A stretch of 64,000 nucleotides of DNA. It comes from Nitrosopumilus piranensis (GTDB lineage: Archaea; Thermoproteota; Nitrososphaeria; Nitrososphaerales; Nitrosopumilaceae). Location: assembly GCF_000875775.1 (NCBI RefSeq), contig NZ_CP010868.1:248001-312000 (forward strand). Reading direction: 5' to 3'. Shown piece after piece: positions 16,276-16,973 of the stretch; position 1 is the first letter of the stretch; each line of letters begins with the position of its first letter. The notes beneath the pieces are model-generated. The model had not been told where the DNA came from. It saw only the letters and a list, made by a program, of their open reading frames with translations, and searched no databases. Made by a program: the position numbers and the translations under genes.

Positions 16276-16416
16276 TAGTTTTAGAATAAAAATTCGTAAT
16301 TTATAGATCGATTTTTAATAAATAGGAATAAAATTTTTCAAAAAATAAAGAATTATTTATAATTTATAAGATTAAGTATTAAATACTTGAAGTTCCTATA
16401 ATAAATAATGCCGAAG

Positions 16417-16424
16417 GATATAAT
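16417..16424 (+). promoter_or_regulatory. TATA-like box before the candidate RNA at 16442
   Basis: GATATAAT here would place transcription start near 16445, the beginning of the paired element. A second TATA-like stretch (TTATTTATAATTTATA) lies at 16355-16369. Both face right, with no protein gene on that strand downstream for over 1 kb. Confidence 0.35.
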
Positions 16425-16441
16425 TCCTATCGACTAAAATC

Positions 16442-16536
16442 GCGTAACCCCGCAGAACTACATAGGCAATCAAACGCAATAGCCGTTTGACATAGAGAGG
16501 GAATCTCTCATTGTTCTGCAATGAAGGGGATTACGC
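16442..16536 (+). ncRNA. Candidate structured RNA, multi-branch with possible pseudoknot
   Basis: GCGTAACCCC (16442-16451) pairs with GGGGATTACGC (16526-16536) with one bulged A, and GCAGAAC (16452-16458) pairs with GTTCTGC (16513-16519). Inside are two hairpins: CAAACG/CGTTTG (16471-16476/16484-16489) and GAGAG/CTCTC (16495-16499/16505-16509). GGC at 16465 could pair with GCC at 16482 as a pseudoknot. It lies in a 266-base gap between two leftward genes, is GC-richer than its surroundings, and no ORF explains it. Strand is uncertain; + is chosen for the TATA placement. I do not recognise the family. Confidence 0.55.
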
Positions 16537-16541
16537 CTCTT

Positions 16542-16973
16542 CTAATTTTGTAAAATATCAACTGATACTGAACCCATCACATTTCCATTTGGATTAATAG
16601 TGATTATAATCTGCTGATTCTCTGAAATAGAAATTTCTTTTTGCCCAATATACTCCCATGTAAAATACTGTGAAATCCCTGTCTCATGTAACGTGCTCTG
16701 TAATTTGAAATCTTCTGAAAAATCTATCTTTTCACCATTTAGTGAAATGGATAAAATTTCTGGGCTACTGCCATTTGGAACAAATCTAAATGAATATTCC
16801 CCACTAGCAATCTCAAATGTATCTGAATAAACTCCATCAATATACAAATTAGGATCTGCCAATGTTACATGAAAAACAACATTATTTTTCTCATCAGATT
16901 CTTCTGATAAAAAATTCATTATAAAAATTCCAATAATTATAACTATGGGAATGATTACTATTTTTTTATTCAC
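16542..16973 (-). CDS. Hypothetical membrane-anchored secreted protein
   Basis: A 143-residue protein with one N-terminal hydrophobic segment (about 5-21) after MNKK. It acts as a signal anchor or signal peptide. The rest is beta-rich (FHVTLADPNLYIDGVYSDTF and IIITINPNG). No recognised family. Its last codon lies 6 bases beyond the candidate RNA at 16442-16536. Confidence 0.6.
   Translation of the reverse strand: MNKKIVIIPIVIIIGIFIMNFLSEESDEKNNVVFHVTLADPNLYIDGVYSDTFEIASGEYSFRFVPNGSSPEILSISLNGEKIDFSEDFKLQSTLHETGISQYFTWEYIGQKEISISENQQIIITINPNGNVMGSVSVDILQN

Follow-up and report, generated by a model that had tools for sequence, protein, structure and literature searches.

A predicted, previously uncatalogued structured RNA gene of Nitrosopumilaceae with a conserved nine-codon reading frame and a variable peptide

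Introduction

Bacterial dual-function sRNAs such as SgrS/SgrT and RNAIII/hld are standalone transcripts that combine a short embedded ORF with a folded regulatory region. In the leader-peptide attenuators of the trp and tna type, a short 5' ORF abuts a helix, and the position of the ribosome could set the structure. Among archaea, ribosome-associated sRNAs have been described in Haloferax volcanii, most of them without coding evidence (PMC12482152). The open-licence literature on small RNAs in Nitrosopumilus and Thaumarchaeota yielded no description of the RNA reported here, and almost nothing was found there on regulatory RNAs in the family Nitrosopumilaceae.

Here we analysed a window of 64,000 nt from Nitrosopumilus piranensis (NZ_CP010868.1, positions 248,001 to 312,000 of the forward strand; coordinates below are those of the window unless a contig is named), for which an initial annotation had proposed a structured RNA of about 95 nt at 16442-16536. 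The locus is predicted to hold a small RNA gene of Nitrosopumilaceae that is previously uncatalogued. Like SgrS/SgrT and RNAIII/hld it would stand alone and join a short ORF to a folded part, and like the attenuators it has a short 5' ORF that abuts a helix.

Results

Conservation begins 5' of position 16442, with a TATA box followed by a block that runs from 16408 to about 16549, and this extent makes the segment 16442-16536 the 3' domain of a predicted standalone RNA gene of about 142 nt on the forward strand (Table 1). The element first proposed is indeed folded but was drawn too narrowly, since the gene starts at about 16408 and adds an ORF and the hairpin P0, and the TATA-like box that had been noted is present as the gene's own putative promoter. 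In the window copy the TATA box ends 22 nt ahead of the start codon, and the established archaeal promoter spacing suggests leaderless transcription with a 5' end at or adjacent to the start codon; the TATA spacing at other genes gave no clear calibration of leaderlessness. The initial annotation had recognised no riboswitch or ribozyme in the region; a search against Rfam 15 gave no match at the gathering threshold for the window and none up to E=10 for 16280-16640, and ARAGORN found 0 tRNA or tmRNA genes in the window. The archaeal SRP RNA (RF01857) and RNase P RNA (RF00373) both scored above the cut-off elsewhere in this genome.

Table 1. Coordinates of the predicted RNA gene and its parts in the window
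Feature	Position	Strand	Remarks
TATA box TTAAATA, putative promoter of the RNA gene	16379..16385	+	TAAATA 28 nt ahead of the start codon in 126/145 homologues
Whole predicted RNA gene	16408..16549	+	About 142 nt; block conserved in both alignments (A1, A3); ends placed from the TATA spacing and the 3' T-run
Putative leaderless 9-codon ORF, ATG...TAA, MPKDIIPID	16408..16437	+	Kept in 145/149 distinct homologues; 79 distinct peptides
Hairpin P0, inside the ORF	16410..16434	+	Both-side changes at 9/9 pair positions; just 64% of cells pair
Helix P1, 5' strand GCGUAACCCC	16442..16451	+	Partner 16526-16536; GCG/CGC near-invariant, rest covaries
Helix P2, 5' strand GCAGAAC	16452..16458	+	Partner 16513-16519; 95% of cells paired; both-side changes at 7/7 pairs
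Hairpin P3, variable in sequence	16470..16490	+	Both-side changes at 8/8 pairs
Hairpin P4, GAGAG-GNAAU-CUCUC, best-conserved hairpin	16495..16509	+	94-99% of cells paired
Helix P2, 3' strand GUUCUGC	16513..16519	+	Partner 16452-16458
Helix P1, 3' strand GGGGAUUACGC (16526-16536) and conserved unpaired C at 16537	16526..16537	+	
T-rich 3' end, presumed transcription terminator	16538..16549	+	T-rich tract 3' of P1 throughout A1 and A3

The segment 16442-16536 folds with an MFE of -34.6 kcal/mol (z = -5.25), a value that 0 of 200 shuffles equalled, and the full gene with -42.7 kcal/mol (z -4.23), while the 5' segment that contains P0 has a mean z of -2.2 across 26 divergent members. P1 to P4 would form a three-way-junction domain located 3' of the ORF and P0. 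RNAalifold failed to recover P0 and the greater part of P3 from the MAFFT alignment, so the pairs were assigned manually before counting. In that independent MAFFT alignment (A1), for which the structure was named after inspection, both-side changes were present at 24 of 37 pairs vs 11.3 in shuffles. In the divergent set (A3), which was fitted to a covariance model and so leans towards the structure, they were present at 33 of 37 pairs vs 22.9 in shuffles, with 275 compensated cells vs 79.2 and a covariation score of 0.336 vs 0.158, and structures slid by 1-3 columns scored at most 0.098; the share of paired cells in A3 was 82-99% for P1-P4 and 64% for P0. The five predicted helices P0-P4 are thus strongly supported by covariation across species. 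The initial annotation had made compensatory changes across species the test of its structured RNA, and with such changes found the proposal stands, together with the end pairing (P1 and P2) and the two internal hairpins (P3 and P4) that it described; its GGC/GCC pseudoknot, which just 2 of 86 homologues could form, does not. Within P1-P4, G-U cells outnumber A-C cells (101 vs 27), therefore the RNA appears to be read from the forward strand, and its most conserved segments are helices and not an exposed antisense stretch.

We also considered an alternative terminator-like hairpin (AAGGGG/CGCCUUUU) that translation could expose. It pairs well by composition; on almost every measure its covariation does not exceed that of shuffles, and a translation-controlled terminator is not supported by these comparisons. 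When 13 members were folded with the ORF and the 5' strand of P1 masked, no alternative fold common to all of them was found.

The initial annotation was correct that the region holds no long ORF, but it missed the conserved short one at the 5' end. In a census of 149 distinct homologues with P1 placed by script, the 145 members that kept the ORF had nine codons in 138 cases, eight in 5, ten in one and twelve in one; L129 and L093 are listed with ten codons, and L095 and L104 extend to twelve. For a few members with a 3-nt deletion the count of nine is taken from an upstream ATG, and the downstream ATG gives eight. These ORFs start with ATG (139), GTG (4) or TTG (2) and stop with TAA (87), TAG (31) or TGA (27), and the stop lies 3-4 nt from P1 in 132 of the 145. 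Four members that have lost the ATG (L110, L112, L157 and L158) kept an in-frame TTG or GTG start, and L157, one of the 4 failures in the census, has such an ORF 5' of a misplaced P1. Among 26 representatives with less than 60% identity in the ORF core, 22 kept the ORF vs 0.73 expected from dinucleotide shuffles. In 17 divergent representatives, stops were present in the other two frames in 14 and 9, the absence of stops in frame 0 being partly by construction. Indels within the ORF in A1 are of 3 nt (L044, L099, L100, L106), and the linker just 3' of it varies by 1 nt.

The encoded peptides share no common motif beyond their length and are unrelated between lineages (for example, MPKDIIPID, MSLVIKSGD, MQKDVKSTA, MLVQCRMMD, MAEKSRQMT and VIVESLQMA), and they are fairly uniform inside one copy type and genus (MPKDIIPID, MSLVxKSGD). 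These comparisons show that frame, length and stop position of the putative ORF are conserved without conservation of the peptide, and part of the constancy of the start and stop positions may reflect common ancestry and not independent conservation. Such an ORF is absent from the weak homologue L258 (G010, 28 bits), which has strong P1-P4 and the P4 loop GCAAU and is possibly an ORF-less state.

A second copy (copy B, L034) is present in the same genome at C1:1168350-1168524; it is 74% identical to the window copy (copy A) over 179 nt and has a different peptide, MSLVIKSNE. By nucleotide search, 112 of 200 genomes of the family carried homologues, and a covariance model derived from 86 homologues gave matches in 17 of 22 genera of Nitrosopumilaceae, with 1-4 copies per genome, and zero matches in other families of the order and class. 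Applied to 38 previously negative or unlisted genomes, a further model based on 62 divergent members contributed just one more match, weak and again inside the family. The smallest genomes of the family (g5; G004, G026 and G042; 0.8 Mb) gave no match, and the RNA is probably dispensable in these most reduced genomes. Named records with the core motif belong to Nitrosopumilus, Nitrosarchaeum and other, mostly nitrosopumilalean, archaea, and it is from these names that the family is read as Nitrosopumilaceae; no exact match to the motif was found in viral contigs. The core motif was also present in two MAGs labelled Nitrososphaeraceae (L167, L186, L234), which may be mislabelled, or the distribution may be wider.

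Copy A is syntenic across Nitrosopumilaceae and is flanked by an SDR gene and, in convergent orientation, by a 143-aa ORF, which overlaps the 3' end of the RNA by about 8 nt in an arrangement kept across the family; a homologue of this ORF was found at 83 of 145 loci, deep genera included. The 143-aa ORF (16542-16973, reverse strand) is membrane- or lipoprotein-like, with no Pfam match above the cut-off. Copy B is tail-to-tail with a PurP-like 363-aa gene, and other copies with PurP-like, TFB-like, HSP20-like, Fur-like and other genes, names that rest on reading the sequences and not on a family search. The loci share no same-strand gene downstream, where the genes are mostly convergent and unrelated between loci. 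The absence of a shared same-strand gene downstream makes a cis leader unlikely, and the tail-to-tail placement with unrelated genes at different loci fits a trans-acting RNA. Together, the comparisons show a structured, vertically inherited, standalone predicted RNA gene with a conserved reading frame.

Discussion

We propose, with a probability of about one half, that the standalone RNA consists of a leaderless nine-codon ORF/P0 followed by P1-P4, and that the act of translation, and not the peptide, would switch or deliver it. Ribosomes would initiate leaderlessly on the 5' AUG, melt P0 during translation and halt at the stop codon 3-4 nt ahead of P1, so that the terminating ribosome would abut the P1 junction. 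At termination, P1 would start some 10-11 nt past the first base of the codon in the P site, which would put it close to the mRNA entry site. Translation as an event could then let the RNA sense translation or the state of the ribosome, or deliver it as a ribosome-associated trans regulator. The peptide is free to vary, therefore the translation event is the likely function, through sensing or through ribosome association. More tentatively, a leaderless mini-ORF of fixed length and free sequence that places the terminating ribosome at an RNA junction may define a new class of trans-acting RNA, acting as a general sensor or regulator of translation in ammonia-oxidising archaea.

Other readings account for parts of these observations. 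The short ORF within a structured small RNA would suit a dual-function sRNA of the SgrS/SgrT or RNAIII type, with a nonapeptide that is functional itself and a folded part that base-pairs with other RNAs, and the near uniformity of the peptide per copy type and genus points the same way; however, 79 different peptides among 145 members with only their length in common, and conservation that is strongest in the helices, make this unlikely. If the RNA were purely noncoding and structured for binding a protein or ligand, its 5' segment would be merely P0 and the ORF a by-product of the conserved start site, hairpin and linker, which is consistent with the compensatory changes that maintain P0, with the variable peptide and with the one weak homologue that lacks the ORF. 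A hairpin alone, however, would not require frame, start and stop to be kept, and these are kept even where ORF cores look unrelated, with codons swapped nearly always start for start and stop for stop, and we consider a purely noncoding RNA quite unlikely.

The family-wide overlap of copy A with the 3' end of the same convergent gene would favour control of the adjacent gene by a leader or attenuator acting in cis, or by an antisense RNA, but this is very unlikely given the inconsistent downstream genes on the same strand, the different genes that other copies face (PurP-like, TFB-like and others) and the alternative terminator hairpin without covariation. A mobile inverted-repeat element, the main alternative of the initial annotation, might be suggested by 1-4 copies per genome at several loci. 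Its probability is close to negligible, since this genome has just two copies at fixed loci, 74% identical and not many near-identical ones, copy A is syntenic across the family, pairs are kept through compensation and the core motif is unmatched in viral contigs.

Nitrosopumilaceae are among the most abundant archaea of the ocean, and an RNA that keeps its frame but not its peptide across the family would be evolutionary evidence for the translation event, not its product, as the function. The RNA family would also link leaderless initiation, termination and RNA structure in Archaea in a testable way.

The peptides of SgrS/SgrT and RNAIII/hld are conserved in sequence, whereas here just frame, length and stop position are, and the ORF would be leaderless and located at the extreme 5' end, unlike in those RNAs. 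Compared with the trp and tna attenuators, the present RNA is without a downstream gene in cis and without diagnostic codons, and its competing terminator hairpin is unsupported. The ribosome-associated sRNAs of Haloferax volcanii are haloarchaeal, whereas the present RNA was searched within its own class and matched only in Nitrosopumilaceae; by analogy with those ribosome-occupied sRNAs, an association of the present RNA with the ribosome is plausible (PMC12482152).
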